Source: Patiria pectinifera (Eukaryota; Echinodermata; Asteroidea; Valvatida; Asterinidae). Taken from it: DNA of 64,000 nt. Under the pieces are notes generated by a model. It ran no database searches. It was not told the DNA's origin and saw nothing but the letters and a program-made list of their open reading frames with translations. The stretch covers positions 13,418,863-13,482,862 of the forward strand of contig CM057135.1 in NCBI GenBank assembly GCA_029964075.1, in the 5' to 3' direction. Both the position numbers and the translations under genes were made by a program. Of this stretch, positions 15,370 through 58,957 are shown piece after piece. Each line of letters starts with the position of its first letter. Within the stretch, counting starts at the first letter, position 1.

Positions 15370-17419
15370 TTAGTCGGTTTCAAATTGTTCTTCCAGTAAG
15401 GAGAGCAGTATGTTGAGGGTTTCGTCTCGTTCATTTTGTTCTTCGAAAAAGCCAGAATCTGTTGGGAGTGGTTTGAGCTCTTGGGTTAACTGTGGTAGTT
15501 TAGCTCTTATTAATTTCTCCCGGATGTTTTGGGCTTTTCTGAAGGCAATGAATGGAGGTTTCGGAAAAAGTTCCGAGAGTATTTGATTGCCTTGGATTAG
15601 GTTCCAGTGTCTATTTATTGCTCGATGTATGTCACCGTGATTTATGGCTGGGTTGTAGGTGGTTGTGAAGACAAGTGGAGTTTGTTTTGTTTTTTCTCCA
15701 TCCTTCGTGTTGTGTATTAGTCTCGTTCGATCGGCATGTGAGACTTTGGATGTTGCTGCTTGGATTTCGGTGGGATTGTATCCTCTTGTGGTTAGTTTCT
15801 CTGAGAATGTTTTGACTTTCTTGTGGAAATCATCCGCGTTGTTGGTGTTTCTAGCGTAGCGGAGTGTTTCTCCGTATATGAACGCTTTGAAAGTATGAGG
15901 TGGGTGGGATGATGTTTGTGGAGATATTGGAAGGTTTCCGTTGGTTTTGTGTAGACTTTGGTGTCTAGGATTCCTGTTTTACGGAAACGGTCTCCTTTGA
16001 ATATGGTTAAGTCAAGGTAATTGATTGATGATTCAGAGGCTTCACATGTGAATTTTAGGGTTGGGTGCATCTTGTTTATCTCCGTAATGAGATTTTGGAA
16101 TTCGTTCAGAGTTCCGTTGTAGATGACCAGTATGTCGTCTCTATAGCGCCACAATGTGAGGATATTATCCGCTTGTTGGATTATTTTGTTTTCGAAGTCG
16201 TGTAGGGTGATGTCACAAATTTCAGGGCTCGATGTGGAACCCATTGCACAACCAGTTTTATGGAGAAAGAACTTATTTCCAAATTGGAAACAGTTGCGGC
16301 CAAGGATGAGGGCCAAGGATGAGTTCCAGAAGTTTTTTGGATGTAGGTTGAAGGTGGTTTTGTGATCGGATAGCTAAGGTTTGTATTGTCGAGGGCATTG
16401 CAAACGCATTGGATTGCTTCCGTTTGTTGGACATTTGTGTACATTGAAACAACATCTATGCTTGTTATTAGAACATCTTGTGGAAATTTTCTTTCTTCCA
16501 GTTTGCGCAAAATGTCTGCTGTGTCGCGGACATATGTGGGTTGTGCGGTTACTATGGGAAGAAGGAAGTAGTCTATGTATTCTGAAATTTTGGCCGTAGG
16601 GCTTGTGCCTCCACTTATGATTGGTCGTCCAACAAAAGGTTCTCCCGGTGGTGGGGTTTTGTGTATTTTGGGGAGAAAATACATGGTTGGACATTGACAG
16701 TTTTGTGGAAGTGGGTCGAGGTATTTCAGAGTATCGTTGTCGATGTGTTTGTTGTTTCTCATTTCTATTAGCGTGTTGTGAACCATTGTGATGGTTTGTG
16801 GGGTAATGTCTTGGTCCAGTTGGGTATAGTGATGGGACTCAAGGTAGTGGTAACCCACTTGTAGATAGTCTGAACGGTTCATAATGCAGATGCCTCTGCC
16901 TTTGTCATATGGTTTGACTACGATGTCAGGATTGTTTTTGAGTTTGTTTATGGCGGATAGTTCTTGCGTGGTCATGTTTTTCTGCCGATTTCTTAGCCTG
17001 ATGTGGGCCAGTTCGAATTGTGTGGCTTCCAAGTATTCTTCTAGTGTTGCACTAGGAGATGATTTTGGTTGCCATTTTGATGGTGGTTTGAAGGGATGGT
17101 TTTTGGAGCGTTTGTTACGCATTAGAAAAGCGATTCTTAGTCTTCGGTTGAAGGTATTTATGTCACTTACAAGTGATTTGCGGTTTGGTTTAGCAGGAGT
17201 GGGTACGAAGTTTAAACCTTTTCCTAAAGCAATTATTTCGGTTTGCGATAGTGTTGCTTTGGATAGGTTGGTGATGAACGATTGGCATTGTTCTGCTAAT
17301 GAGCGCAAATGATTGGAGTTGGCTCGTTGGGTTTTCGATTTGCATTGGTTGGAGAAATTGTTAGACTTCAGTTGACTTAGGGATCTCTTGGTTTTAAGGT
17401 TGAGTTTCCTTCTTGCCAT
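15370..17419 (-). pseudogene. Penelope-type reverse transcriptase (frameshifted)
   Basis: Start ATG at 17419 (MARRKLNLKTK). Conserved blocks in order: LNFVPTP (about residue 70), DIVVKPYDKGRG (about 165), MYFLPKIHKTPPPGEPF (about 245), GRPIISGG, SIDVVSMYTNV (catalytic Asp), then GCAMGSTSSPEICDI and YRDDILVIY (catalytic pair, near 16150), NYLDLTI and KPTETFQYLH (thumb). A 13-bp tandem duplication of GGCCAAGGATGAG (16298-16323) shifts the frame before the GCAMGS block. A second shift near 15895 is needed to reach the C-terminus (KAFIYGETLRY to EEQFETD, stop 15370-15372). The reconstructed length is about 680 aa. The active-site residues survive but the reading frame does not. Confidence 0.8.
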
Positions 17420-31683: not shown

Positions 31684-32220
31684 TGTTTGTGGATTTGTTA
31701 TACATGTCACAGGAAATTGCTTCAGAACAGGATCCCAGCAGAAGCTTGTGCAAACAATTTGGCATTGGAAGATATCCCAGAAGAATTGAGTTGTTTAAAT
31801 ATATTGGAGGAGCATCTGATTGCAATCAATGTAGCATTTATGAAGATGATGGCTTTACCCAGAGGTGGACAGAATGCAGTGCATGGCCCAGTTGTTTGTG
31901 TACCTTCAAATATTTCGGAAACCGTAACAGCATTGCCTAGATGTTCTAATAATAATGAGTTAATCAGGGTTAAGTTCAAGAGAAAATTGTCATTCAAAGG
32001 ATATTACCAGTACCAATTTGTAAATAGAGAACGTGTTGAGCGTGCACTACAGTATCTTAAGGAGCATAATGTGTGGTTCAAGGACATTGAGATAAACTGT
32101 GAGTGGGACAATCCCTTGGAAGATGAAATTGATAGCCAAGAAGAGCATGAATCTGATAATTCAAGTGAGAGTGATGAAGACACAGACGTAGACACAGATG
32201 AAGAAAGGTTGACAGGTATT
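31684..32220 (+). pseudogene. Helentron DUF6570-like domain
   Basis: Follows an in-frame TAA (31681-31683). Recognisable are CYTCHRKLLQNRIPAEACAN, ALEDIPEELSCLNILEEHLI, MALPRGGQNAVHGPVVCVP, ETVTALPRCSNN and YLKEHNVWFKDIEIN. This succession matches the DUF6570 region that precedes Rep in many animal Helitrons. An acidic tail (DSQEEHESDNSSESDEDTDV) follows. The function of the domain is unknown. Confidence 0.7.
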
Positions 32221-33639
32221 GTTTACGATACATGTTTGCAGCCAGTGAACATTCCCCAAGATGCTTTGGACCAACATTTTGGTAATGTCATGTGTGTTGC
32301 TCCTTGTGAAGGAAATAGCCCAGTCAGAGTATTAATGGAAGAAGGTAATGAGGCCAAATGTTTCCCAGCATTATTTCCAACAGGCGGCCCTATTTTCAGT
32401 GATGATCGTGATGTAAAGTTAAGTCTCTGCAGATATTTTCATAACAGGTTGATGAATGCAAATAATAGATTTGCAAAGTGTACTCAGTATATCTTCTATG
32501 CTCAATACCTACGTCAGAAATACAGCAAGTAATGTCAAAAGTATCAATTGCAATGCGTCAGAGCTCAGGCAGTTTACACAGTGCTGAAAGTGTAAATGCC
32601 AGCATGATTAATGATAGAGATCAACTGAGAGATAGTTTACAGTCTGATAGTGGTTATAGGTTTCTAAAACCAATCAGAGGTACTCCCACGTACTGGCAAG
32701 CAGCTCAGAAAGATGTAATGGCTAAGATTAGACAACTTGGAATACCAACATGGTTTTGCTCATTTTCAGCAGCTGATATGAGATGGCCTGAAATCATAAA
32801 TACGATATTGAGACAACAAGGTGATCCTAGAGATATTGAGGATTTGGATTGGAATGAGAAATGCAAAATATTGCGAAGTAACCCTGTGACTGCAGCTAGA
32901 ATGTTTGACAAGAGATTCCATTCATTTTTGAAAAATGTCAGCATGTCGAGAGCTCAGCTTATTGGCAAAGTGAAGGATTATTTTTATAGAGTTGAATTTC
33001 AGCAAAGAGGAAGTCCACATACCCACTATCTATTTTGGATTGAGAATGCTTCAAGATTGGGATATGATAGTGATTTAGAAGTTATTCAATTCATTGATTC
33101 ATATATCAGCTGCAAATTGCCATCCAAGTACGAGGATTCAGAGCTGAATGACATAGTGAGTCACGTGCAGCTACATAGCAAAAAGCATTCTAAGTTATGT
33201 AAAAAGAAAGGAACTGAGTGTAGATTTAATTTTTCAAGACCACCATCCAGTAGAACCTTCATTACTGAGCCAGATCCAGTGAATAATGATGATGACTATG
33301 ATGATGATTATGCTGATCGTGATGATGATAATGATGAGGATAAAGAAGATGATAGTGATAGCAAGAAGCATAGTGATGCTAACGAATTATTGAAGTCAGT
33401 TTGGGATGCAATACAGAACGAGGAAAACCAGAATTTGTCAACTATTCAATTATTTGAAAGAATGAATATTATTATTATTATTAATTTGTTTATTATTATG
33501 TGTTTTTTTCGCCACCAGCAGCGGAATTGTAAAAAACATTTACAATGTTTAATCATTAAAAACAAAACTTTACTTTACATGAGTAGCGAAGGACTAAAAT
33601 AGTATATATAAAAAAATATAAATAAAAAACCATGAAAAG

Positions 33640-34761: not shown

Positions 34762-36436
34762 TTATTGATTGTTTATATCCCTTGTACTGGGAACCAAGGA
34801 TTTCTGGATTTGTTCCAGGGTGTCACTCTGTTGCTGGGTCAGTCCAGATGACCATACCGGGACTGCGTATTCCAGTATTGGTCTGATGTACCCAATGTAG
34901 ATGGTGAGCAGGTCCTTCGAAGGCAATGCAAAATGTTTTAGAAGTCGGAGCATGTTCATTCGCCGGTTAGCTTTTGAAGTAATGTCCGTCACCCATTCAT
35001 TCCATTTGAGATCCGACTGGATGATTAGGCCCAGTATTTTAAGTGAGTGGTATTCTTGGAGTGGTTGATCACATAGTTTGAGTTCTGTCAAGGTAGGCAT
35101 GCTTTTTTAAGCATACTCTCATGACTGTACATTTTTCCGGATTCAGTTTTAAGCGGTTGTCAGTGGACCACTCCTCAATCGAAGTTAGGTCGGCCTGTAT
35201 ATGGCTTCGATCAGAACGCGTAACTGTTTCAATAAGTGTCATGTCATCAACATACTTCCAATGGTGGGTAGATATGTCTGATGCTCCATCATTGATCATC
35301 GCTAGGAATGCAATTGGTCTCAGGCGGGTATCCTGTGGAACACCAGCGATGGTTGTGTGCCAGTCAGATATTGTGCCATCATAGCGAACGTATTGTTGGC
35401 GTTCACACAGGAAATCGCAGATCCACGGAATCAATGATGGGCGGGTGCCAAGGTTCAACAGCTTAGTGATAAGAATAGTGTAATCCACTCTATCAAACGC
35501 TTTGCTGTAGTCAGTCGCCACAAGTGTAGATAGTGTGTTCGGGGTGTCAGCATTACGAGCTAAAGTGTCCATCACATTAGTCAGGTAGTGAGTAGTTAAC
35601 ATACCCTTTCTGTTGCCAAACTGTTGGGGGTCGAGCTGGGGATGGATGTCTTGTAGTATCCATTTAGTAACGAACTTTTCTGCAACTTTGGCCAAGTAGT
35701 CAGTGAGTGAAATTGGCCGGAGTTTGTTGATGGTAGGTTAATTGGTCTTGGGAACTGGGATAACTATGGCTTTTTTCCACTGTGATGGGAGGCTGCCTGT
35801 GGCAAGTGATTGATTGAGGATGTCGCAGATTGGGGTACTCAGTTCACAAGCGAACTCGCGAATCAAGCGCAGGGGAATACCATCTGGACCAACAGCCTTG
35901 TGGACGTTGACTTTTCGAAGTTCGTTGTAGACTTCCCAAGGGAAGACTTGGGGGCATGGTGACAGAGTAGGCAAATACGCTGGAAGTGCAGCACAGTCAA
36001 GCCGAGGGATGTCCGCTGCAACTGATAGGAACTGATTGTTGATGGCGTCAGCAATCAATTTCTTCTGTGACTGATCAATGCCAGGTACACGGATTGCTGC
36101 GTTGCGTGCCTGATTACCAGTCATGCCTCTGATTTGTTTATACCACGTTCTGGGGTTGGCTTTTTTGTGTTGTTGAACACGACCATGGTAGTAGTTATTT
36201 TTAGCAGTTATTATGGATCTTTTGACCTTATTTCTGAGCAACTTCCACAATAATTGTCTCCCTTGGTGGAATGCCACCTGTCGTTTACGTATGAGTTCCT
36301 TGATTTTGGTGGTCATCCACGGTTGGTCCTTGTTGTGGAGCTTGATGGTGCGGCACGGGATGAAACGTTCAATGGCTCCATGCAGTGTGTTGTAGAATAT
36401 GGTTGACTTCTGGTCAGCCGTGTCTTCTTGAAGCAC
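34762..36436 (-). pseudogene. LINE reverse transcriptase (frameshifted)
   Basis: Three segments in different frames. 36436-35738 holds the pre-RT part and KAVGPDGIPLRLIREFACEL. 35695-35069 holds FGNRKGMLTTHYL, DYSKAFDRVDY (catalytic Asp), AGVPQDTRLRP (normally GVPQGT) and WKYVDDMTL (catalytic YVDD, near 35255). 35100-34762 holds KILGLIIQSDLKW and YIRPILEYAVPVWSSG, the thumb end. A stop at about 35738 and a shift near 35090 interrupt it. It primes reverse transcription at the target in related elements. Not functional here. Confidence 0.82.
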
Positions 36437-40701: not shown

Positions 40702-41280
40702 ATGGACCTAAAATGTAATAATGAAATGATGAAATCTGATTTCATTTGTCTTACTGAGACATGGATCGATAATGAGCAATACTCTGATATAGAATTAACT
40801 GAATTCAAATGCTATCATATGATAATTCAAGTACAAGTAACACACATGTTGAATCAGCAATGTCATGGGGGTGTAGCAGTATTTGGTAGAAGGAACAAAC
40901 CATTTAGCAGACTGACTCTTCCTGTTCAGAATCTAGAGCATATTGCATATCAGGTAAGATGTCGTATTGTGTGGCAGTATAGTCCAGCTTCATATTCAAT
41001 GGATGAATTTCTTGGCTATTTGCAAATTCCGTTGAGTGAACTTCATAAAGTTTCCAATAGGTGCATTGTGATGGGTGATTTTAATGAAGACATTCTGAAA
41101 CACTGTTCACGGATTGAAAAGTTAATGCAAGATTATGGTTATAGACAGTGTGATCATGATGAAACTACAGAAAATGGCACATTGATTGACCACGTATACG
41201 TCAGAAATATGGATACGGTAGATGCTGCAGTGATTCCAACATACTACAGTTATCATGAAGAAGTTTCCATAAGAATATAA
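40702..41280 (+). pseudogene. Helentron C-terminal AP-type endonuclease domain
   Basis: In the same frame as the helicase end, separated only by the TAA at 40699-40701. Motifs: SDFICLTETWIDNE (catalytic Glu region), HGGVAVFGRRNK, RCIVMGDFNEDILKH, NGTLIDHVYVRN and YYSYHEEV, where the usual SDH has become SYH. The fold is exonuclease-endonuclease-phosphatase, acquired by the Helentron branch from non-LTR retrotransposons. The reading frame itself is open, so the fused ancestral protein was cut by one stop codon. Confidence 0.8.
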
Positions 41281-43243: not shown

Positions 43244-43960
43244 CACTCTAAAAAAAATTGGGCAAATTGTGCCCAACTTTTAGCCCAATGTTGGTCTAAA
43301 TATCAACAGGTTAAAAAGTTGGTCATTTATTGCCCAACAAGCATTGGGCAATCGCTTTGCCGAGAAAATGGGTAATGCCTTTTGTTTAAATGTTGGGTAG
43401 TTTACATATTTGTTGGTCAATTTCAAATTGTCCAATAATTGGTCAAATTTGGTTGCCATGTTTGTTGGTTAATTTGAACTTCCCACTTTTGTTGGTTATT
43501 ACAACTTTCCCCCCCAAAATTGTCAAATCCGGTGGCTATTTTTGTTGGTTAAGTTTAAATAACCCTAAAATTGGTCAAAGCTGGTTGTCATATTCGTTGG
43601 GTAATTTTGAATGCCCAAAAATTGGTCAAATCTGGTAGCCATTTTTGTTGGTTAGCAAGGTTTTAATTTTCCCAGGAATTGGTCAAATGCGGTTGCCATA
43701 ATGTTGGTCAATTTCAACTTTCCCAGGAAATGGTCTTTAATTACTTGATTGATTGGGATTTTTTTTCCACAGAAATTGGTCACACGTAGTCACGTTTGTT
43801 GGTTGACCCAGAAATTGGTCCTTTCCTTTTGCCATGTTTATTGGTTAAATCAGGTTTTCTCCAGAAGTGTCTTTTCCCCTTATTTGGGTTGCATAAAATT
43901 AGCTTTTTTCCTTCGAAATTTGAAACATATTTGGTCAATAAACATCCAACCAGAAGTTTA
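43244..43960. repeat. Subterminal TTGGTCAA/TTGGTTAA motif array, left end
   Basis: Units of about 60-85 bp carry ATTGGTCAAATTTGGTTGCC and TGTTGGTTAATTT variants. The right end of the element (57500-58230) has the counterpart, with GTTGGGTAATTTT and ACCAAATGTTGGT. Subterminal motif arrays of this kind bind transposase in CACTA elements (family knowledge; not shown here). Confidence 0.6.
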
Positions 43961-44549
43961 GGGCTTATACTTGCTGGATAATAAACAGCGATGACAGTAG
44001 TTGTGCTTGTCACTTGAAATACAATTTGGATAGGTCAAATTTTAAATAAATTGTTTCACGAATCTATAAAGGGGGAATTTTTTTTAAAATAAATTTACGT
44101 AAAGTTCCATTCCGTCCCTAAATTATCAAGAGCAAATAAAAACAATGAAATACAACCATGTTAAACTACCACTTAACTGTTTGCTGCCAAACAAACCCTT
44201 TATTTAAACCATACTGATATAAAACATACACAAAACACAATGGTTCATTTGTTTTCGTAAATGCTAATGAAGCATTTTTTTGCAAAGCCTTATAAGTTTG
44301 GGAAGATTTTGTATAGACTTCTCACTTCGTCCAATGAAAACTGCCAAAACAAGCTTTACAACTTTTTATCATCATGTTTCATATCTAGCATTGCTAACAC
44401 AATAACGTTGGGCTCCATCTTGCCTTGGAAGTGTTGAACAATTCAACAACTTTCGTTATATTCCAAGAGTATTTAGAGTGTTAAATTTGGGCCGATGAAT
44501 TATTCAGAGATTAAACTTTTAACATGTAAACTATTTTGAAGCCTCAAAG

Positions 44550-45412
44550 GGAAATACCTCCCTAGGATGCTGGTAAATGACAGTGTAAAGCATCCTGTAA
44601 AATTATGGCACCTGGTGTGAAGTCATTTTCAAGAAATTGTATTTTTGTTTACATTTCCAACGGTGGTTGGCCGACCTCCGTTGGAAAAACCTAACTATTT
44701 TTCAAATATCCAAATTTACCATTTTTTTTCAGTCGTAATTTTGTTTGCTATTGGTTACATGTTCCTGAACAGGTGCAGACCAGCTGGACTGGTTCCCTTA
44801 CCTTACAATTTTCCGGCATCTATAACTTGATCCACTTCATTTTCAGTGGAGTCCGGGAACAGACTACTTGAACATTTTTGTTTTTCTTGGTTTTTCCAGC
44901 ATTTTGAACACAAAACTTCAAACATGTCAGTGTAACAATATTTTTTCTATTATACTAACCCCTCAAATAGTTTATTTCTGAAGCCGCTTTTGCTGTAATT
45001 TTCAGAACTAAACTATTTGTAATAGATCAAATATTGTTACACTTACATGTTTGAAGTTTTATGTTCGAAAATGCTGGAAAGACCAAGAAAAACAAAAATG
45101 TTCAAGCAGTCTAGTTCCCGGACTTCACTAAAGATGAAATGGATCAGGTTATAGATGCCGAAAAATTGTAAATTAAGGGAACCAGTCTAGCTGGCCTGCA
45201 CCCATTCATGAATAGCAAATAAAATTTGAACTGACAATTATTTTTTTTGTAAATTTGGAGAAGTTGAAAAAATAGGTTTTTCCAACGGTGGTCGGCCAAC
45301 CACCGTTGGAAATGTAACGAAAATACCATGTGTTAATTGACTTCACACCAGGTGCCATGATTTTACAGGATGCTTTAGACTGTCATTTACCAACATCCTA
45401 GTAAGGTATTCT
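44550..45412. repeat. Foldback element with about 420-bp arms
   Basis: The left arm (GATGCTGGTAAATGACAGTG, GGCACCTGGTGTGAAGTC, TTTCCAACGGTGGTTGGCCG) is mirrored by the right arm (CGGCCAACCACCGTTGGAAA, GACTTCACACCAGGTGCCAT, GACTGTCATTTACCAACATC). The centre is near 44985. No coding capacity. It lies in the CACTA-like element downstream of the SAM gene. Confidence 0.78.
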
Positions 45413-45948
45413 GTAAAATCTTGGTACTTTTTTTCCCCCAATGTTTGCAAATTTCCTTTTAGCATGAATGAAAATACTAAGGTTAATGTAGGCACTTATT
45501 TTTTTACTGGGATTTCTGGCTTGCCAGGTTAGACTACACCATGATAATCGAATGTCAAACCTGTAGCTGATTGATATGTTGTTACCAGAAAAGGGCAGAA
45601 ATGGTTGCTACATATGTTTATATGTACGTAGCTGATATTAAGAACTTGCACACCACAGGGTGTGAGTGACCACTGATAAAAATAGCTGAAAACAGCTGAA
45701 AAGATCTAAAAAGGCTGAACTTTGGAAAAATATTTTTTTGTACACAGCAAGTGCGAGAAAAAGCTGAAATCCATAACCAATCAAGCTGAAATCAGCTTTA
45801 AAGCTGAGATTTCACACCCCTATGACACCAAATGCAGATTACTTGGATTACAATGCTTAAATCACTTGGACACCAAATACGCACGGAAATCCCTCAAGAT
45901 TGGGGGAACTATCCCTGGTAGTTCGTACACGACATTTTGGAGGAACTC

Positions 45949-48900
45949 CTAGACTGTCTTGACTTGTGGCTGGTAATTGATGTCAAGCACGTAATGTGCC
46001 TTAAATGCTGCATCAACAGTCTTTATCAGACTTGGGTAAGGGACGGCCCGTCTCTCAACCACCAAGAAGACTTGAGATGGACTCAAGCGCTCAGTTGTGT
46101 AGAGTGCAAGGATGAACGGTTGTGGCCTCTTTTCGGCATTGATGCTGTCCAGGTAGTTGTCCACGTCGATTATGGCCTGACAAAAATGAAAAGAAACGGT
46201 ATACGTCACTCACTGGTATTTTTTTTATTTTAAAGTGTACAGCAGTTAGTTTTTGCCAAGTAACCTGAAATGGCAAGTACGTTTTAGTGCTGGAGTCTGG
46301 TGTACTCTACAATATGTTCCCAAAAAAGTGTCCATTTGACTGTTTTGAAAAAATAACTACAAACCATGAGGTGAATTGTGAAAATTGCGCACAATTGAAC
46401 AATTTCAAGGGGGGAGGGGGCGGATTCAAACCCCTCCCCCCCCCCTTTAGGGTTAATCAGTTTCAGTGCTGTGTTACGTAAGCTGTGTAAAATCCTGCAT
46501 GTTGAGAAAAAGGTTGATGTGGTTTGGGATTGGAATTATTTGCCCTTGAGCATTAAACTGCATGCCTTGCCACGATTGACTGAGAGAGAGGCAAGTTTGA
46601 CCTAGCCCTTTTCACTACATGAAGGATTTTACACAGCTTTAAAACACATATTGTATAAGGCAAGGAATGCCAGTGTCCAAAAAAAAAAGAAGAAAAAAAA
46701 AGAAAAAACACATTGTGATCACTTAACAAAGGAGTAGTGAGGCCTGACTGAAATTAATTGCAACTCACAGGCTTAGTGTCTGCACAACCAAAAGTTCATT
46801 GACATCATGGTTTTGTAGTTATTTTAAAGAAAAGTCAGATGAACACTTTTTGGGGACATAGTGTATATAACATACTTCATGCAAAATTCAAAACAAATTG
46901 AATTGAGACTGTTAGTAAAGCGAGAAACCATCTTTCCCACTGATAAGCTGAAGATGTGCAACTGGTACTTTTATGCACCTTTGTATGATTTGCCAATAGA
47001 AATAGATCAGCTTATCAGCAAAGGAAGAAATCAAACTATGTCCTTCACTGAATTGCCCTATGCTATAATTAATTATGGTGAACAGTTTCAGCTTATTTAT
47101 ACTGGAAAAACCTTAGCACTCAATCCCTTTATATGTGATCTTAGAACAAAATACAACATACCGGTTTTAAGTCAATAAATGCATCAATGCTGTCGAACAG
47201 GCTGCATCGGCCTCCTCGCTTGCCTTTACTGCGGCCCCCCAGAATGACTGGTAGAAGGAACAGGGCCAGGTTTTTCTTCTCCGCTGAAAAAAGAAATTAA
47301 CAATACATAAGCAATAACAAAACCCTGCAAATAGAAATTTCCTCAAAACTTGCCAATATGTTTTGCAAAGCTGTAACCAATAAATTCGCATGAAGCGAGC
47401 CAACATGTACAAATAAATGATTAAAATCATGTGGGGCTACAATCCAGCAGAGAATAGTTTAAACATTGTAAAGCAAGTTTGCAATTTTAGAGGAACCCCC
47501 TTTTCCCCCATTTTCGAGGGCTATGAGGTGTGGTGGTGTTTCGAAGCAGCAAATGCTGAAAGATTTGGGGTTGGGGTCCCAAAATTCTTGAGATTTCAAG
47601 AGGAACTTGTCTGGCAAATTTCCAGGTTTGAGTTTGAGCTGGTCAGCTTTGATGTCAGCTCCAGCAGTTTTTTTTAAATTTGTGTGCAATTGAAACACAA
47701 CATTGTCAGTGAAACTGCGCAAGTGCAAATTTGTTGAGTGGAGCTGACCTACTTCTGTGCCAGCTTCTCTCATTTGAATGATCATTCATAGGCTAACCAT
47801 AGAGGAAGGAACGCAAACTGAAAACTTTATCAAAAGGTTAGCATATGACAAGTTTACCTGTACAGAGTGTACCATCTACTTTGTCCTGCATGTGGAGAAC
47901 CTGCTTCAAAGTTGGAGTCATGAAGTTGGCATATGCTATCACAGAGTCACACAAGCCTTCCCACTTGAAGAAGAGGTTATCTGCAATACCTGGATGATGC
48001 ACCAAATCAAAGTCCTGTGCGATCTTTAAACAAATACAAAATACAAACAAACACATTTATCTACAAGGCAAAATACAGCTATTCACACTTAAAAAAAATG
48101 ATGAACTGTTTGAGGACTCCAACTCAAGATCCATCCCTTGTATTGTGGGAATACGATTTTCACACAAAACTATTGATTTCTGATGTTGAAGATAATTAAC
48201 TAAGGAGGGGTGTTTAGGAACCTATTCTGGAAAGTCCACACAGTACAACACTGAAATGTTATTGTCAATAAGCTAACTTGATCCAATGCTGTCACGATAT
48301 TGACTGCAACACCTCTTGCAATGTATGATATGTTCCATCCTCTTGTCACATATTGCTGTTTGGAACCTATAATTTTCTTACCATGTCTTTGTCGAGAATA
48401 CGTGGAAATTCCTCCAAGATGCCAGCCAGAGAGTGCTTCTTCTGCCCAATGAAATTCTTGCGTTGCCTTGCTGTCAGTGCCATGTATTCTTGAACTTTGC
48501 TTGCTGGCTCCATGTTGTCCTTCAGCCAAGCTACCATCCTGGCTTCTTCTTCAGGAGAACTAGTTGTCCCTTCACGAGGTGGCTCTACATATAATAGTAT
48601 TGAAAAAAAGTTTTGACAACATGTGTCAAATTTAGCCCTGTGCAGCCAAGTACGAAAGTAGGGTCAAGCTGAACCAAGTCAGCTTGGCAGGCCCAACCAA
48701 ATCCAAAAACTAGAAAGTACATGTATAACCAACAAAACAAAGTTAACACTTGACTGAAGGAAACCTTGAAAGTGTAACCTTTGGGAACGATGTTTGTTGG
48801 ATAAAAAATATATTTGTTGAAACAAAATGTACAAAATAATGCAGCACAGTGCAAATTATCATTTTAATTGCGTGCATTCAGCTCCAGACAAATAAAATAA

Positions 48901-51900
48901 ATTACCTTTTCAATTTAATTCAGCTATTTTTCAATTTATTCAGCTCCAGACAAATAAAATAAGATTTACAAAATTGGGAACAATTGAAGGATACAACATA
49001 AAAATCTTGGATGCAACAATATGTTGCTTAAACACATACCTTCAGCAGGAGCATCCAATTTCCCCTTGTTCCTGTCCTCATCAAGCATCGTCTTTCTGAT
49101 GTACCTTAGTCGCTCCTCCAAGTACCCTGTAGCTGGACGTTTGTTTGCACCTTTCATATACCATGCTTCCTACATAAAAGAAATTGAGAAGCCCTTTCAT
49201 TTAGTTGTACAAAAATATACTCTTTTCAGTTTGTAATACATCTATTTCAGGTTGCCATGCAAGTATCAGTCAGTCTCACAAGAAAAAAAAAAGGTAATTG
49301 GCTAAAAAGAAGAGTCTCCGCTTTCTGTTATGCACGCGCGTCGCCGTAGCCATGCGTGTCAGCAGAATTATAAAGTTTTTTTTCATTGTAAGATGATGTC
49401 TCAAACCGCCAAACTCATTGGTTTGACTGGAATCCTGCTGCTGCACAATTCTGACATGTTTTTAGATGGGGCTACAATCTAGTATAAGCTTTATAAGCTG
49501 TATAGGCTTTATAAAAGCTATACATTTTGCACTAAATTTAGTCGGGCACCAATTGCAGTCATCAGCTGAAATTTAAAGAAAAAATGTTTAAAAAAAGGCA
49601 AGCTCCATACCAGAAACCTTTTTTTGGCCTCAAGTGGGTTTGAACAAATGTTGTATATCTGAACTGTTACATTTCATTCTTGTAGCATAAACTGATGGAA
49701 CTTGTATTTGATGCAAAAGTTTTGCTTCTTTAAAAGTTACCGTACTTTGAAATTCTCATTTTTTAACTTTTGTTTGTTTTCTACTTTTTGTCTCATTCAA
49801 GACAGGCTATATAAGGATTAACTTATATCTCTAAAGTATACAACTGATTTTTCAAAGGTTGTTTTCAGATGTAAGTTTAAAGTGATAACCATTTTTCAGT
49901 AGGAAGATAAACCAGTCAATTTTTCTTTGTATAAAAATGTGTTTTAGAGTTAAAAGATTGAAACAACACAGCAAAGAAAGAAAACAAGCACAATTCCTGT
50001 TTAATTTGCAAACATACTTACATAGCCTTTGCCCTCTGGATCTTTGAGGTATGGAAACTCCTCAATGATACTCTCAGCAAGACACTGCTTCTCGTATGAA
50101 CTTGGCCTTTATAACACACACAAAAAGAGTTACACTGTTGAATTCAGCGGAGTTAGTTTTCAATTCGGTGGAGCAGTGATGGGTGCACACAAGTATTGAC
50201 ATAATGCGCACATACACGCAGTTGCTCTAATTTGTCGGGTCAGTGCATGACATTGCGTAGCTGCAATCTATAGAATGAGAACATGTCCCGGACGCTGATG
50301 GCGTCTGCCTGCAATTCAAAACATGAAACGGCAACTTTGCTTCACATACACACAGTTTTTGTGCTAGTGAGATTATGTCTTTCTAAAATTCTCATTATTT
50401 CTTACCTTACAAGAACGCTCAATTTGTCAATTTTTTTTTATTTTTGGGGGGTGCTTGTACTTACTTCAAACCATGGTTTTCAATGAGGAATCCAACCAAC
50501 AAGGATGTCATTGTGCATCTGGCCTTCTTTGTGAGCACTTTATCAGCTTGAAGTTGTGCAACAATAGCTGTGCCAACCTTGGTTGTCTGAAGAATAGTCC
50601 GTGCATTCTGCAATTTGAAGAAAGTAAAGTAGTATACATGAGGATGGGGATAATCAAGACAGGTGCAAACATCCACACACAAAAAAGTAACATGACAGTG
50701 GGTGCACTGGATGTGACAAAGTGCTACTGTATTTTTTTCTTTTACCTTACAAAGTAAACACAATGTCATACACTTACAAACAGTGACATCTTTCGTTTCT
50801 TCTGGTGAGAGGGTGTGCCACTTGAGGATGAGGATGCCCTAGACACTGAAGCTGATGCATTGCTTTGTGGGGAGGAAATATCAGACAACTCATGCTCATC
50901 CGTCAGGTCATCAGAGGAGTCATCATCACTGTACTGTAGTGGAGGCTTCTGCGCTCTTATTGCAGCATGCTGTTGCTTTGGAAACTGGAAATTTCATACA
51001 AATATGACATAAAAAATAATTCAAAAAAATAAGTTACCCTGCAAATAAGCTGAAGGGAAATGTACCAGTGAAGGGCAGAACAACAGATTGAGCAAATATT
51101 TCTATAACTCACCTAAAATGTGTTATATAAGGTTGAATCGAATCACAATGTACAGCAAATCATCTTTTTCATCATGGCTCCGTGTAACATGATGTTACAT
51201 GTCGTTTCACCATGATGCCTCCATCCATCCGTTGAACACCAAAAGCATGAAAGTGTCTTTTGAAAGCCTTTACAAGCCATGGCCTTAGAGTGACGAACAG
51301 GCCTCTCTCGTTTACAAGGATATGCTGCACTTCAGCAAACTGGGGTCCATCTTCTGTCCATGCTGTGAGGACCATGCTGTTCGGTTTTAGCTGGTAACCA
51401 TACACATTTGCCATACTTGCAACTGTGATAACTGTATCCTGTGTAACCTTCAGAGAAGCACAGATGACATTCACCTCTTCCAACGATTTCACAGATACAA
51501 GAACCTGATGCTGTATATCAACATTACATTTGAAGGTGTGGTTGGGATCAGAGAGCAATGCAACTTTGTTGCTGCTGGTGCCTAGTAGCTACCGACTTCG
51601 CAATGTTTCGGTAGTTGTTACATGCAGCAGCCCACTTCTTAAATGGCTTGTGTTTGGCCTCATATCTCATACTCGAGTATTGCTGTAATGGGCCAAGTAG
51701 CCGAATTGCCCTGGGATAGTGCAACAGATGATGCTGCTTGGGTGTCAAATGACGTTCTGAATAAACTTGAAGAAAAAGACTGTGGTGGTCACGTATCATA
51801 TGTTTCAGAGAGTATGTTGCTCCTTTGCTGATCGAGTCAGACATAACTGTTTTGTAAATGTCCAGTAGCAACAGATAAACCTCCCATACGTCTGATCCCT

Positions 51901-54900
51901 CTGGCACAAGATCACCAATTATAAGTGGGAGATAAATCGCAAGGCACATGGTCTGAGCTGCTTTCTGTCCACTTGGCCCCCCGGATTGTTAAAGGCTGAT
52001 GGCCCAATTGCACTTGGTTTGTTTTTTTGGTCCACTTTCCCATAGCTAAATGCACTAATCCTGCCATTAAGCTCGTCAAGTGTGAATAAATTTTCTTCAA
52101 CCAAAGATTTGAGAGTTAGTTTAATCTCCAAAGGTAGAACACCCTCTAGCATGTCATGCATAACATCAGGAGCAACATTTTGTGTTACATGGTAGCCTAA
52201 CAAGTTATTCAGGGCAGAGCGTCGCTTAATACCCGTTTTACTGACATCTTCCAGTGCTGCATCCTCTTCATAACTGTGCTCAGTCCTAAGAAGATCTGGA
52301 TCTTCCACAAGCTGATATCTCGCAGTCTGCCTGTGTACTCTGCAAAACCTGCATGGATGGTTAGCTACAAAGCTCAGAACATATCCCAAGGTTTCATGTT
52401 GGCCTAAGTTGTCTCCAATAACCTGGAACAGATATGGCTTCACTCTAACTGACAGTTCATCATTTGAAACTTCAATGCCTTCTTTTTGAAGTCTGTTAAG
52501 ATCTTTCACTACCGTGGGTAACACACAGTCAATACCATACTCCGACAAAACAGTGCACTTGGCACACGCGACCAACATAATACCAACATAATATTGCTCA
52601 GATTTGCTTGGCATATTGAGGGTAAGCCGAGGATGCTGGAATAAAAACAGGTAAGCTTATGTATTCCTTTATGCGATCCTAGAGGGTTGGCTGTCTCAAA
52701 AGCATCATTATAAAGGAGAATTGGCAACATTATGCTGCCTGTTTCTTCCCCTTTTAGTTTTTCAGCGACAAATTCTCCATCACGGAATGACTTCAGAACA
52801 TTTGGATCATCTGATTTTTCTTCATTTAAAATTGCTTTGAGAACTCCAGGCTGCTGCAAAAAAGTTCTCAAATTGGAATCTATCGGTACATACTGATAGG
52901 TGTCTCGATTCTCAACTTGCATAATTTCTCCTGTGGTAGAGTTTGTTCGAGACTTAAATGTCCTGCCAATAAGCTTTTCCACTGGAGTTATCAGATGACC
53001 TTCCTTTTGCAAGTAAGAATTACGCTGATATTGTGTCCGAAGGCCATTGAAAGATGACTTAATAGCTTCAAATGTTTGCTTCATGTTCTCAAAACAAGCA
53101 TTGCGATCATCAACTGTTATGCTGTTGACTGATGTAGTTGCATCTCTTTCAAAATTGTTTAGAATAGTGTGGACTAATTCTTCAACTTCAGAAATTACAT
53201 TTTGAGTGAATGAAGATGGGACAGCAGATGACATCATTGTCTTAATAAACAATTCGATATGTTTTCTTGGATCGTCTTGGATCAGTCCCTCATCTAAAGA
53301 CAAATCGCCATTTTCTGAATCTTCATGCTCACTACTTGTGCCAAATTCTTCATGCTCACTACTTGTGCCAAATTCTTCATGCTCACTACTTGTGCCAAAT
53401 TCGCCATCCTCAAAGTCTGCTGCTTCATCATTCGATTGTAATTCAATATTTTCAGAGCAGTGTTGAGAAATCAGATGTCTTTTAAATGAGGAGCAGTAAG
53501 AAAATGTCTCTAAACAGCCATTTTGATGGCAAATTATCCTTGTTGCAGATCCCGATGTGATGTGGTGGACATATTTAAGATGATGAAATAACTGTTGCAT
53601 TTCTCCCCCGACAGAAGTTAGACATCTAAAACAAGTAAATTCCATTTCACCAGTTTGTTTCATTCAATCAAGTTGTTAACTCACATCTCTCCTCCAACCC
53701 TGAAGAAATTTGAGCCTCAAGCCAATCTTGGGTATCAGCTCAACAAGTGAAGTTTCATCTAGCAGCTTCAAAGCAGCGGTGTCGATTTCATGTTCTACAT
53801 TTGAAGACAAACAAGATAAACTTTCTTAAGAAAAAGCACTTCATTTTAAAAAAAAAATATTTTTTTAGATTTTTTTTGACAATCTAGTTTGTCAACTTTT
53901 TATAGTTTGGGGAAATACTGTTGACAATACACCCTCAACCCATTTTAAACCTAAACTACTACTACTAATACTACCACTAGACAACGGTCCAGCTATGGTA
54001 TATTCCTTGTCAGGCGCGGTTCTACGGGGGAAGGGGGGGGGGGCTGTAGCCCCCCAATATTTTGTCTAGCCCCCCCAAAATAAATGCCGTAAAAAAAAAA
54101 TTGCATTAGCAAAAAGAAGGATTGTGATGTACATGCGAACGGTCTCCCCCTAAAGAAGAGATAGCCGTTACAAGGGTGTATTAGTTAATATAATGTGAAT
54201 GATTTTAAGATTTTATTGGCGCTCCCCATTGAAAATATGGCATGAGCCGGCCCCCCCCCCCCCTACTGATTTTCGGAGGCCTAAGTGTCTGGAAAAAATA
54301 ACCGGTCTACATTTCAGCACGCCTCCCTGAAAATTTGTTGGCTCCAACGTGCTAGCCCCCCCCCCCCCCAAAAAAAATATTGGTTCTAGAACCGCGCCTG
54401 TTCCTTGTTGATGAAAAAAAAAATTCTCGGGGACTTCATGTTAAACACACACGGTAAAATTTGCATTCAAACTCTGATGCTTATTGACATAATCACATAC
54501 ATGTAGCATGCAGCAGTGTTCAGTGGAAAAGAGTTGAATCTGTCCCCATCCCAGCCCCCCACCCCAAAAAAGTTAAGTTCTCTGTGAAGCTACTGCATTG
54601 TTCAGTAATATTATAGCCGTGACATAGTTGTAAGCTCACGTGTCAAAAAAAAAATGATAATACTCCTTGATTGAATTGTAGGGCTATAGGAATCATCAGA
54701 AGATCTAATCACAGGGGCAATAATACATGTAGGGTATACAAGTATATGTACAACATGGAATATATCTCCCATAAAATGGAAGAGGCCCTTTTTATTTAAT
54801 AATTCTGGGTAGATAACCACAAAACCTTCTTAAGTGATTTAGCATTAGTAGGCCCCGACTAATGCATAAAAAAGTTAGCCTATGCCTAGAAAAAAAAATA

Positions 54901-56567
54901 ACAATATTAATGCAGCCTCAAAAAAGGATATTTTTTGGGTTGAAAATCCGTGAAATTTGATTGAACAGACATCATACAGCGATCGTTCAAAAATGCTTAT
55001 GACTTTTATCTAGGCTACCAACGCATTGTAGGCATATGGTAGTAATATGGACATACATCCCGTAGTCACGTACACAATACAAACAGTAACACATAGACGT
55101 ACGTGAAGCAGGGGCCAGGACACGACCGCGCGCGATCTACATGCGGAGTTTGTATCTGTCAAACACAAACTCCGCATGTAGATCGCACGCGGTCGTGTCC
55201 CGGCCGCGCCCCTGCTTCACGTACATGCAGCCTACGTGTTAATTGTTTGTATGTGGTAGGCCTACGTGCATGACGTGTGTACGTCCATACTACCATAATA
55301 CAATGCGTTGGTAGATTAAAAGCCATAAACGTTTTTGAATGATCGCTGTAAGATATCTGTTCAATAGTTGTTGAATTTGACGGATTTTCGACCCAAAAAA
55401 TATTTGTAAGTACATGAAGTAGGCCTAGGCATATCATTAGTATCAACATGATCAAGTATCATTGAAGCCCCATTTAGCTACTTCGTCTTTTATAATTATA
55501 TGTGGAATTGAGGTGATTTCAAAGGTATTTTTGTGTTAACTTTGCATTGTCACTTTGACAATGCAAAGTGGGACGCTTGTAAGTTGTATTGTACGACAGA
55601 CCAACATCCCAAATGTCTAAAAAAGGAGTTCTACTAGCGCCCCAGTTAGTGGGACTAGCCTAGGCCCTACTTCGTACTCGAGTAATCCTTACTTTTAGGA
55701 CCCCATTCCTATATAGGAAGGGAAAGACTCACCAAAACAGCTGACTAAATGACACTCAAAGTAACATTCTGATATTTCTTGACACATTTGAACAGTTGGC
55801 AATGACACCTTCTTGAATATCAGCAGGTTTAAGTTTGTGGAAAGAGGGCAGGGCTTTGATTTTAGAGGAAAATTGAGGGGTAAAAGATGACGATGACAAC
55901 CAGAAAACACTCAAAAACCAAGATGGCAAACGTGAAAGCTCGATGCAATGAAAGCTCGATGCTGACTGGCTGATAAAAAATAAACATCTTAATTTTTTTT
56001 TTTAGCAGCCAATCAGCATTGGGCTTTCATTATGTAGGGCTTTCACGCGTGTGAGAACTAAACAATATGCACGTCTGACTGTGAAAAAAGGTAGGAAAGT
56101 CACATTTTTTGAAAGTCCTTTCAATATTACAACTAACATGAGTTTATATGAAGAAAAGAGACTGCTTTAGCCTGCAAAAGTCACTTTGGTACTGGATAGT
56201 CATCTGCAAAAGTCAGTTTTGAACAGAACTCGTAAAAAATAAAGGTGTCCTAAAAGTAAGGATTACCCGTACTCGATCTGGGGTGCTACTGTCCGAAAGA
56301 CAAATGCGAGAAAGGAGTTCTAACGACCCTCTGGGTCTAGCCTAGGCCTAGGCCTACTGCTAGCCCAGGCCAAGGTCTAGGCTATGCCTACCCTGCAATG
56401 CAGATAGGCCCTAAATGCTGGATGTCAATACTCAGCCTACCTTTGAAATTTGCACTTAATTCGGGAACACCCCAACGTTGTAGGTATTCGTCCACACTGT
56501 CGTCATGGTCTGCAACGACTTCCGGTAAATCTTCGTCGATGTCTCCAGCTCCAGGCCCCCTTGACAT
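45949..56567 (-). CDS. SAM-domain protein, SAMD3-like, 10 exons, intact
   Basis: Exons: 56567-56441, 53794-53685, 50984-50778, 50607-50465, 50106-50022, 49169-49040, 48584-48382, 48014-47858, 47283-47162, 46176-45949 (stop TAG). All introns are GT-AG, every phase matches, and the total is 1512 bp, 503 aa, without an internal stop. Residues about 24-79 (VDEYLQRWGVPELSANF, then LVELIPKIGLRLKFLQGW) form a sterile alpha motif. Residues 80-148 are acidic and Ser-rich with a KKRK basic end. The rest has EKQCLAESIIEEFPYLKD, WYMKGANKRPATGYLEERLR, MALTARQRKNFIGQKKHS and, near the end, VFLVVERRAVPYPSLIKTVD. This layout is that of the SAMD3-like proteins numerous in fish and invertebrate genomes. The biochemical function is unknown. 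The transposase gene lies inside intron 2. It may be a transposon accessory protein or a host gene in use. Confidence 0.82.
47162..47283 (-). CDS. Exon 9 of the SAM-domain gene
   Basis: Acceptor TTTTTTCAG before 47283 and donor CCG/GTATG after 47162. It encodes EKKNLALFLLPVILGGRSKG and LFDSIDAFIDLKP. The first two bases CG complete a GCG codon with the last G of exon 8 (47858), which shows that exon 8 splices directly to it. Confidence 0.8.
49299..49629. mobile_element. MITE family A, copy 3
   Basis: Inverted relative to the copy at 3082-3456. It starts TTGGCTAAAAAGAAGAGTCT and ends CCAGAAACCTTTTTTTGGCC. The body contains GGAATCCTGCTGCTGCACAA, as in copy 1. It lies in the intron between exons 5 and 6 of the SAM-domain gene (49170-50021), so it arrived without disturbing the coding sequence. 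Confidence 0.72.
51172..53663 (-). pseudogene. CACTA-like transposase with zinc fingers, frameshifted
   Basis: The ATG at 53663 opens a frame with two C2H2-like fingers (FTCFRCLTSV with HHLKYVHH, and CHQNGCLETF with FKRHLISQH). Then come acidic FGTSSEHEE repeats, PILLYNDAFETANPLGSHKG (a DDE-type Asp block, near 52720), LVACAKCTVLSEYGIDCVLP, NHPCRFCRVHRQT, APDVMHDMLEGVLPLEIKL and SSMRYEAKHKPFKKW (likely catalytic Glu, near 51660). The C-terminal part runs to 51172. The chain matches animal CACTA/EnSpm-type transposases in order. Breaks: an 11-bp tandem duplication (52571-52592), a loss of phase at a C6 run (51977-51982) and another shift near 51555. The gene sits whole inside intron 2 of the SAM-domain gene, 22 bp after exon 2. 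Confidence 0.75.
53322..53402. repeat. Three 27-bp tandem copies inside the transposase
   Basis: TTCATGCTCACTACTTGTGC is repeated three times at 27-bp spacing. This gives three FGTSSEHEE units in the acidic region after the zinc fingers. The frame is preserved. Confidence 0.85.
54011..54400. mobile_element. hAT-type MITE, 8-bp duplication TTCCTTGT
   Basis: The element starts CAGGCGCGGTTCTA and ends TAGAACCGCGCCTG, a perfect 14-bp inverted repeat. It is flanked by TTCCTTGT at 54003-54010 and 54401-54408. The interior is made of C/G tracts and AT-rich sequence with no ORF. It lies in intron 1 of the SAM-domain gene. Confidence 0.85.
54929..55405. repeat. Foldback element with about 230-bp arms
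   Basis: ATATTTTTTGGGTTGAAAAT at the left is mirrored by GATTTTCGACCCAAAAAATA at the right. The centre (about 55157) joins CAAACTCCGCATGTAGATCG with its complement. The arms have diverged by several per cent. It lies in intron 1 of the SAM-domain gene. Confidence 0.78.
55672..56280. repeat. Inverted repeat pair around 540 bp
   Basis: CGTACTCGAGTAATCCTTAC and TTTTAGGACC (55674-55705) face GTCCTAAAAGTAAGGATTAC and CCGTACTCGA (56248-56277). Smaller hairpins lie between (CTTTGCATTGTCA...TGACAATGCAAAG at about 55540-55568, and a GATGCTGACTGGCTG/CAGCCAATCAGCAT pair at 55950-56025). Probably a MITE. Confidence 0.5.
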
Positions 56568-58238
56568 TTTGGAAACGGTGCCGGACGGGAAGAGTATTAT
56601 ATCTATACTTATAGGAATAAAACTGGCAAACTGCGGCGGGCGGGCAGGACAGGCAGTGGGCGATCCGGCCGACCGTGTGTGTACGTACGTATTGGGCCTA
56701 CGTGACGCCTCGACGAAGATCAATGTCGATTTTGCGCGCGCGCGGTAAACGGAGTTGGCACGCACCCAACATTTTGGTGCAATAAATTTCTGGAAGTGGA
56801 GACATCAGGATCGAGTGTGTGAAGCCTGGGTATTAGGAATACTAAATGTGCTCGTTTTAATAACTTCTGAGCACATGTTTGTTCCCATTAAATAAATACC
56901 TTTCCGTTCAAAACTCAACAATTCCCAAACCATAAATAACTATAAAAATTATTAGCAATTTTACTTAGTGCATGGTGAAACACCTCTATCACTGTGTTTG
57001 ATGGTATGAGCCTAGCCCACTGTACGGTTACCTTATATGGAGATAAGCGCGCAACGGTACACGTGATGATTTCATGATTTTTGTGGTAGGTCCTATTCTT
57101 TGAGGGTTTTTTAAAACCCCACTTAGAGACAAGTCATATATTTATTGAAACACACCTCCAAAATTTCCTATTTCTTTCTCAGAAAATACTGTGTAAAATA
57201 TTTCGGAATTTTTAAAGTATGGCAATCTTGCTAATAACTTGGAGTTAAGAAGGTTATTTAACCAAAAGGTTTTTTTTTCACCTCATTTTTTTATGTTGGT
57301 CCTTCTCAGGAGTAGATTTTTCTCAACATCGGTTAAATTGATATTGGGGAATTAGCATTTCCCAATATCTATGCACTGAAAACACGTTGGTAAACAATTG
57401 TTTGTTAAAACTATATTCAAACAGTAATTGGTCTATAGTTTAATACGATACGTTGGGTGTTTTTTTCCCCAAATTTTTCAAACACCGTAAACAAAAATAA
57501 TTGAGCAGCAGGAAATTCCAACTAATTGGTGACTTTATAATTTTTATTGGTTAAAGTGGATTACCTATAAGTGATTGGTAAGTTATACCATGTTGTTGGG
57601 TAATTTTGCGGGGTTAATAAATTTCCTACTTTTCATGGGTAATCTGTACTTTGTCGTTGGATGATTTTATAATTTTCATTGGGTAAAATGCATTACCAAT
57701 GAGTAAAGGGCACTTTATGCCCAGCCGTTGGGTGATTTTAATCGAAAATACAGGGGAAATTGGTTTGCCCAATAGTATGGGTAATCTGTACCATGTTGTT
57801 GGATGAAAGTGTATTTTACCCAATGGTGATGGTCAATCTGTACCATTTTGGTTGGGCAAAAAATAACAAACAAATGTGTGAAGATGATAAAGAACTAAAA
57901 TACTGGGAAAAAAGTAACCAATTACTGGTTAACCAAAACTTTGGTTAATCTAGTCACATTTGTTGGTTTTTTAAATATATTTGAACGCAATAAATAAGTG
58001 TGACAAATTTGGGATTGCCCATATTTAGGGTGAAAAGTGACCAACACTGTTTGGTAATTAAATACTACCAATAAAAAGACAAAAGTCACACATTTGTTGG
58101 ATGTTTTCGATGCCCATTTTTAGGTAAATCGTGTTGGTCAATTTCGACCCAAAAAGGCCAACATTTTGTACTAAAACAGACCAAATGTTGGTGAAATCAC
58201 TTTGCCCAACATTTTTTTGCCCAACGTTTTTACAGTGT

Positions 58239-58412
58239 AAATAATGAAAGATTTGCGGAAACACCATAAACTCGACGTTCCGGTCAGTATGCTCTGACCG
58301 TGGTCAGAGCATACTGACCGGAACGTCGAGTTTATACCTCTTGTTCTTTTCAGAACCATTCTCTTAGTTGAGAAATTATTCGCACATGGTGTTTCCGCAA
58401 ACCTTTCATTAT
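58239..58412. repeat. Foldback unit with a perfect 34-bp palindrome core
   Basis: 58266-58299 and 58302-58335 are exact complements (ATAAACTCGACGTTCCGGTC and following bases) separated by GT. An outer pair continues the symmetry (AATAATGAAAGATTTGCGGA with the complement near 58393-58412), interrupted in the right arm by about 50 bp. It begins immediately after the end of the CACTA-like element. Confidence 0.82.
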
Positions 58413-58957
58413 TTAGTATCTTCACCATGCAAAGCCTCAAATCTTACTTACTTGTTTTCTGCCAGTTGCCAGTGTGCTTTCCTACAGCATCACTCTACAT
58501 GCCAGTATATGAACATGGTTCACGTGAGTGAGATTGATCATGAAACTTTGTTTTCATTACCATTACCTACTCTATTTTCAAACTTTGGACAATTTCAGAC
58601 TTTGCTCATAAAAATACACGCGGACAACTGCAGTCTGACCTATTTACCTCAAATTTGAGGTAAAAGGCAAATGATACAGAATACAGGGGGTATGCTATTG
58701 ACAAAATGAATTATCCTTAAGCTTGAATGAGGCATTTGCAACGGGCACCTACATCTCTGCAAATAGTGTACCTTGAATGCGACTGGTAACTTAAAATTGA
58801 GTGTGTCCACTAATATTTTAGCATTTTGCAAAAGTACAGCCAGGTGGCAAAATAGTACGAGACAATTTTTTACGAGTGTTGCTTCTTATAAACCACTTCC
58901 TATTATATTGTATTCAGGGAAACATGCTGACTCTATAGCAGATGAAATTGCCCGCTG

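Follow-up and report, generated by a model that had tools for sequence, protein, structure and literature searches.

Results

Two nested genes on the minus strand

The DNA analysed here, called the window, is a stretch of 64,000 nucleotides of the sea star Patiria pectinifera (contig CM057135.1 of assembly GCA_029964075.1, positions 13,418,863 to 13,482,862), in which a ten-exon gene for a SAM-domain protein carries the remains of a transposase gene in its second intron, and both genes lie between the candidate ends of a CACTA/EnSpm-type DNA transposon. The SAM-domain gene will be called the accessory gene. It runs on the minus strand from 56567 to 45949, its nine introns are all of the GT-AG type, and the exons join in one open frame, 1521 bp long with its stop, coding for 506 amino acids. 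An earlier sequence-only reading had given the exon count, the open frame, the outer ends and the 53685/50984 junction correctly; its size of 1512 bp and 503 amino acids had to be corrected. The exons are as follows:

56441..56567, minus strand: accessory exon 1, ATG and start of the SAM domain
53685..53794, minus strand: accessory exon 2, remainder of the SAM domain
50778..50984, minus strand: accessory exon 3 (exon model)
50465..50607, minus strand: accessory exon 4 (exon model and tblastn)
50022..50106, minus strand: accessory exon 5 (exon model and tblastn)
49040..49169, minus strand: accessory exon 6 (exon model and tblastn)
48382..48584, minus strand: accessory exon 7 (exon model and tblastn)
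47858..48023, minus strand: accessory exon 8 (exon model and tblastn)
47162..47283, minus strand: accessory exon 9 (exon model and tblastn)
45949..46176, minus strand: accessory exon 10, to the TAG (exon model and tblastn)
45862..45951, minus strand: premature TAG, 28 in-frame codons and stop, matching the C-terminus of the Patiria homologue

The exon model was checked by tblastn, in which eight of the ten exons were found with the crown-of-thorns protein P0002 and six with the sea-cucumber protein P0003, all at the modelled positions. The N-terminal SAM domain, already recognized in the sequence-only reading, was confirmed by Pfam SAM_2 with 22.3 bits (cut-off 20.5), while SAM_1 gave 19.1 bits, under its cut-off of 23. 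In the Foldseek search with the predicted accessory structure the best 50 of 161 rows were all SAM domains except one low-probability spliceosome row, VIA structure matches were confined to residues 15-83, and the family profile compared with PDB sequences found two SAM domains (E 0.11-0.12). BFVD gave no match at E 0.001 among the best 50 of 94 rows. The accessory protein is composed of a SAM domain and a conserved central and C-terminal region whose fold was not recognized.

Relatives were collected by two single-protein searches and an alignment-based search, each scoring the best 7994-7996 candidates, therefore all counts of relatives are minimum values. At least 16 homologues of the accessory protein were found among the best 7994 candidates, and the alignment-based search added one further protein, P0095, giving 17 accessory proteins. 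The closest homologue among the candidates scored is an uncharacterized Patiria miniata gene model (P0001, LOC119733962), identical at 358 of 362 aligned residues; others come from the crown-of-thorns star, sea cucumber, a sea urchin and several fishes. P0001 has no SAM domain and begins at the end of exon 3: either the first exons were lost from that copy or the gene starts elsewhere. The cluster of the sea-cucumber homologue holds 30 member sequences, which can also be isoforms. When viral contigs were scanned with the accessory and transposase families, 1 and 15 pattern matches appeared, and none of them was confirmed as a relative.

The transposase in intron 2

Intron 2 contains a decayed protein of about 830 amino acids with at least 78 relatives among the best 7994 candidates scored. 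With the relative P0021 as tblastn query the matches passed through window frames -3, -2, -1, -2 and -3 and so changed frame four times, where the sequence-only reading had counted at least three disruptions. The following features were located:

51126..53645, minus strand: transposase remains with finger region, DDE core and C-terminal domain; four frame changes
53460..53645, minus strand: two C2H2-like finger stretches (C2H2 from the relatives' profile against the PDB)
52692..52718, minus strand: first catalytic Asp motif, LLYNDAFET (assigned from conservation and model)
52396..52422, minus strand: second catalytic Asp motif, VIGDNLGQH (assigned from conservation and model)
52339..52353, minus strand: C(2)C motif (as defined in PMC12730594)
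52141..52170, minus strand: D-x-M-H-D motif (its D, H and D shared by all 19 aligned relatives)
51710..51739, minus strand: H(3)H motif
51650..51664, minus strand: catalytic Glu motif, YEAKH (assigned from conservation and model)
51126..51522, minus strand: C-terminal transposase domain (BAH-like only in the predicted model of the relative P0017)

Conservation was counted in 19 of the 78 relatives, which were aligned; in all 19 the assigned D, D and E motifs and the C(2)C and H(3)H motifs are invariant, and all can still be read in the window copy. Pfam zf-C2H2 did not match the window transposase piece, and DUF4218 was found in two of the 19 relatives (E up to 0.1). A RAG1/Transib transposase fold was found in the predicted model of P0017, not of the window copy, with 8-13% sequence identity to RAG1/Transib-type structures in the structural alignments.

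The same-strand position of the transposase in intron 2 agrees with the sequence-only reading. The mechanically called open reading frame starts at 53663, and the start agreeing with the relatives is the in-frame Met at 53645. A direct splice from exon 2 (53685) to 53663, proposed earlier as a route to the transposase, was rejected for this copy: the gap of 21 nt is too short for an intron, and the frame shared by exon 2 and the transposase holds two stops between them.

Lesions in both genes

The accessory gene had been described as intact. Beyond its TAG, in the same frame, stand 28 codons identical to the C-terminus of the Patiria homologue, and then a stop at 45864-45862. In alignment A1 (the window protein and 13 of the 16 homologues, one of the 13 being too short for this column) the TAG corresponds to a Trp in 12 of the 12 relatives reaching it. 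Alignment A3 has Trp here in 15 of the 17 accessory proteins, the other two not extending this far; among the 15 is the shortened model P0095, whose placement at this column was probably forced. Additionally, the window protein differs from the Patiria homologue by four substitutions and one missing residue, and one of the substitutions replaces a Trp that seven of the 16 accessory proteins covering that site have in common, the fish rows being variable there. Judged from the assembled sequence, the accessory gene of this copy has a premature stop which removes its conserved C-terminus.

Since the accessory gene is not intact, the suggestion that it was selectively preserved, by recent amplification in trans or by host use, loses its basis. 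Its near identity to the annotated Patiria protein does show that there is a close copy or allele; nevertheless the gene is truncated, and when the five lesions (one stop and four frame changes) were allotted by codon number, the probability of at most one falling in the accessory gene was P = 0.35 in a rough, low-power binomial test, so their numbers are no different from shared decay. One stop beside four frame changes is what shared decay could give, and we hold selective preservation to be highly improbable.

Candidate ends of the element

Both genes are enclosed by a pair of candidate transposon ends:

43244..58237, minus strand: whole element, CACTA/EnSpm (CMCT) type, 14,994 bp, TA on both flanks
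58212..58237, minus strand: 5' terminal inverted repeat, CACTGTAAAAACGTTGGGCAAA... (compared with the other end)
43244..43269, plus strand: 3' terminal inverted repeat, CACTCTAAAAAAAATTGGGCAAA... read inwards
57338..58237, minus strand: 5' subterminal array of CCAAC, ACCAATT, TGACCAA and TTGGGCA (extent by eye)
43244..43943, minus strand: 3' subterminal array of the same four words (extent by eye)

The arrays end at CACTGTAAAAACGTTGGGC (58237) and, inverted, at CACTCTAAAAAAAATTGGGC (43244). The terminal repeats are identical in 19 of 23 alignment columns, with three mismatches and one gap; their outermost letters, CACTG and CACTC, have the 5'-CA...TG-3' inverted-repeat form of CMCT elements. 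Counting both strands, the window has three occurrences of the word CACTNTAAAA, two of which are the element ends. The five-base flanks are ATTTA and TAGAA.

CCAAC was counted 11 times in the 5' array (mean of 500 shuffles 2.20, maximum 9) and 11 times in the 3' array (mean of 500 shuffles 2.05, maximum 7). On the coding strand TGACCAA is confined to the outer 1.6 kb, where there are ten copies; it is absent from the 13.4-kb interior and from the remainder of that strand of the window. The opposite strand has one more in the ends. A tandem unit of 51 bp lies at 43512-43651, within the 3' array.

Further repeats were seen in and beside the element. Nested inverted repeats of about 860 bp, with arms 77-96% complementary, lie between the accessory gene and the 3' end (44553-45410), and nested palindromic repeats in accessory intron 1 (54928-55403) are possibly another small inserted element. 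At 58238-58415 stands a short inverted-repeat element with arms TAAATAATGAAAG... and a perfect 34-bp inverted repeat within.

Linkage of the two protein families in other animals

The accessory-family profile matched seven of the 78 transposase relatives. In two of them, P0034 and P0024, the transposase fingers are preceded by the second half of the SAM domain; P0034 is identical to the sea-cucumber protein P0025 at 493 of 496 residues over their overlap. In P0025 and in P0042 and P0031 of hake the transposase runs on into later accessory parts. Some of the joined gene models are probably artificial fusions made by gene prediction; such fusions are expected only if the genes neighbour each other on one strand, from which we infer that the two families are adjacent. 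In sea cucumber, fish and wasp, accessory pieces adjoin transposases of this kind, which suggests that the two genes may together constitute an ancient transposon with two proteins.

These results bear also on the possibility that the SAM gene is a host or domesticated gene under selection, into whose intron a now dead transposase was inserted. The clean splice sites of the ten exons and the single stop lesion, together with the near-identical gene model in Patiria miniata, would fit such a gene. The premature stop, however, takes off a conserved C-terminus, terminal repeats and end motifs surround both genes, accessory pieces accompany the transposase in several animal groups, and the 30-member sea-cucumber cluster, even if isoforms may contribute, fits a multicopy element. 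Domestication was rejected because the stop is premature and the number of lesions is ordinary, and we regard a host gene as very unlikely.

Other features of the window

Outside the element, two adjacent open reading frames with DUF6570 and Helitron_like_N (31687-33602, plus strand) are probably Helitron remains, and the RVT_1 and Exo_endo_phos matches at 35069-35695 (minus strand) and 40702-41280 (plus strand) are probably retroelement fragments. A 412-amino-acid open frame at 16181-17419 (minus strand) had no Pfam match at E 0.01; this region is also rich in CCAAC/GTTGG.

Discussion

A probable decaying two-protein transposon

The anatomy of the locus, the candidate ends, the motifs clustered at them, the lesions in both genes and the linkage of the two families in several animals make it probable, in our judgement, that we see here a single, old and decaying copy of a sea-star DNA transposon of the CACTA/EnSpm type (CMCT clade) with two proteins, the accessory one being TnpA-like. 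The suggestion of the sequence-only reading that the two nested genes belong to one element is probably right, since the layout resembles that of En/Spm and accessory pieces are found on transposase relatives.

Several observations weigh against this interpretation. As regards the ends, TA on either flank has a chance of 1 in 16, the motif words and array limits were chosen after inspection, and a 700-bp bin at 17151 holds ten CCAAC/GTTGG, as rich as the 5' end. The imperfect terminal repeat was missed by an automatic search with exact 9-mer seeds and was first noticed by eye, then checked, and another inverted-repeat element directly adjoins the 5' end. As regards the proteins, SAM_1 scores in four and SAM_2 in three of 14 accessory members (E 0.1), the Foldseek SAM matches have E 0.055 or worse, none reaching 0.001, Transposase_21 matches with E up to 0.1 occur in five of the 19 relatives and are weak, the best having E 0.0054, and Pfam did not find this domain in the window transposase pieces. 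Furthermore the linkage was drawn from gene models and open reading frame calls rather than aligned genomic loci, and the transposase profile matched none of the 17 accessory proteins. In P0062 and P0087 of a parasitoid wasp accessory C-terminal parts stand before the transposase, in reversed order, thus the nesting is not universal.

Proposed mechanism

The element would encode two proteins: a DDE transposase that bears fingers and has a core predicted to be RAG1/Transib-like, once an uninterrupted reading frame inside intron 2, and a multi-exon SAM accessory protein. A single promoter ahead of exon 1 would probably give one primary transcript; splicing out of intron 2 would yield the accessory mRNA, and a transcript form keeping intron 2, or starting within it, would supply the transposase, as in the tnpA/tnpD pair of En/Spm. 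The accessory protein would probably, like TnpA, bind the short-motif arrays near both ends, although this binding is a guess, and its self-association through the SAM domain would pair the ends for the transposase; in excess it may instead silence the element. A regulatory role of the accessory protein and alternative processing of one transcript, both raised by the sequence-only reading, are sensible proposals by analogy with En/Spm.

Alternatively, the accessory protein could resemble RAG2: it would not bind the ends but would assist a RAG1-like transposase as its chromatin or regulatory partner. The predicted RAG1-like core would suit this, the RAG1L/RAG2L transposons are a precedent for a transposase and a partner gene within one element (PMC7204232), and no DNA-binding domain was recognized in the accessory protein, which also weighs against end binding. 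The end-clustered arrays and the nesting, in contrast, match En/Spm, whose accessory protein binds such arrays (PMC2613891), and the predicted BAH-like domain, if real, is on the transposase itself. We consider a RAG2-like partner unlikely, and an end-binding accessory protein is kept in the model.

More tentatively, and with considerable doubt, it can be proposed that a bilaterian-wide CACTA lineage is an obligate two-protein machine, in which a RAG1-fold transposase, maybe with its own BAH-like chromatin reader, would act with a SAM accessory protein polymerising on the end arrays to pair them; the accessory gene would in addition have been taken over as host genes, among them possibly vertebrate SAMD3. 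A presumed, unverified partial sequence of human SAMD3, compared with the accessory profile, gave an hhalign probability of 73.5 and a pairwise E of 3e-5 over 197 columns spanning the SAM domain and the central region; this is a lead only, because the letters are provisional and SAM domains are alike in any case. If such a lineage exists, it would be an independent animal counterpart of both En/Spm TnpA/TnpD and RAG1/RAG2, a conserved SAM partner of a RAG1-fold transposase would offer a tractable model of how end-pairing partners are recruited, and fish and echinoderm gene models now called 'uncharacterized' or named after SAM would be reclassified as transposon genes. Among the open-licence papers listed, no title or opening of an abstract describes a SAM protein in CACTA/EnSpm elements or SAMD3 as a transposon gene; Repbase may hold such families.

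Comparison with known systems

Two-protein CACTA elements are well known from plants. Maize En/Spm has CAC termini, as does the sea-star element, and shares with it motif arrays near both ends (found here with words picked after inspection) and a DDE transposase. The tnpA/tnpD arrangement, with the transposase reading frame in an early intron of a multi-exon accessory gene (PMC2613891), is also that of the sea-star element, and the order transposase, then accessory, recurs in the sea-cucumber and hake models. The sea-star accessory protein, however, belongs to a SAM-domain family and is set beside TnpA by layout, not by sequence; the plant proteins TNPA and TNP1 themselves have little mutual similarity (PMC2613891). 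Further differences are that the sea-star transposase has N-terminal fingers and lies in intron 2 rather than intron 1, and that its element is flanked by TA, whereas the flank of soybean CACTA has 3 bp (PMC2613891).

ESTA, a group of fungal EnSpm-like elements with TA duplications, shares the CMCT motifs and the TA flank (PMC12730594). The elements of that description are fungal and come with a TET/JBP dioxygenase gene, and the likeness drawn here is one of features.

Compared with RAG1/RAG2, ProtoRAG (BbRAGL) and Transib, the sea-star element has no 5-bp flank repeat, whereas RAG and Transib make a 5-bp target duplication. The partner is a SAM protein and not RAG2, and the resemblance of the transposase to RAG1/Transib, in the low-identity structural alignments given above, is one of predicted fold.

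Among the animal relatives of CACTA are the SmTRC1/TRC elements of Schistosoma, mosquito and beetle, which have a similar D-x-L/M-H motif, direct repeats of 2 bp and further open reading frames that are alternatively spliced (PMC1636069). TRC termini begin with CCC (PMC1636069) and the sea-star element begins with CAC, so it lacks the terminus that marks TRC. According to PMC1636069, the further reading frames of TRC showed no detectable conservation; the sea-star accessory pieces, in contrast, recur from echinoderms to fish and wasp.
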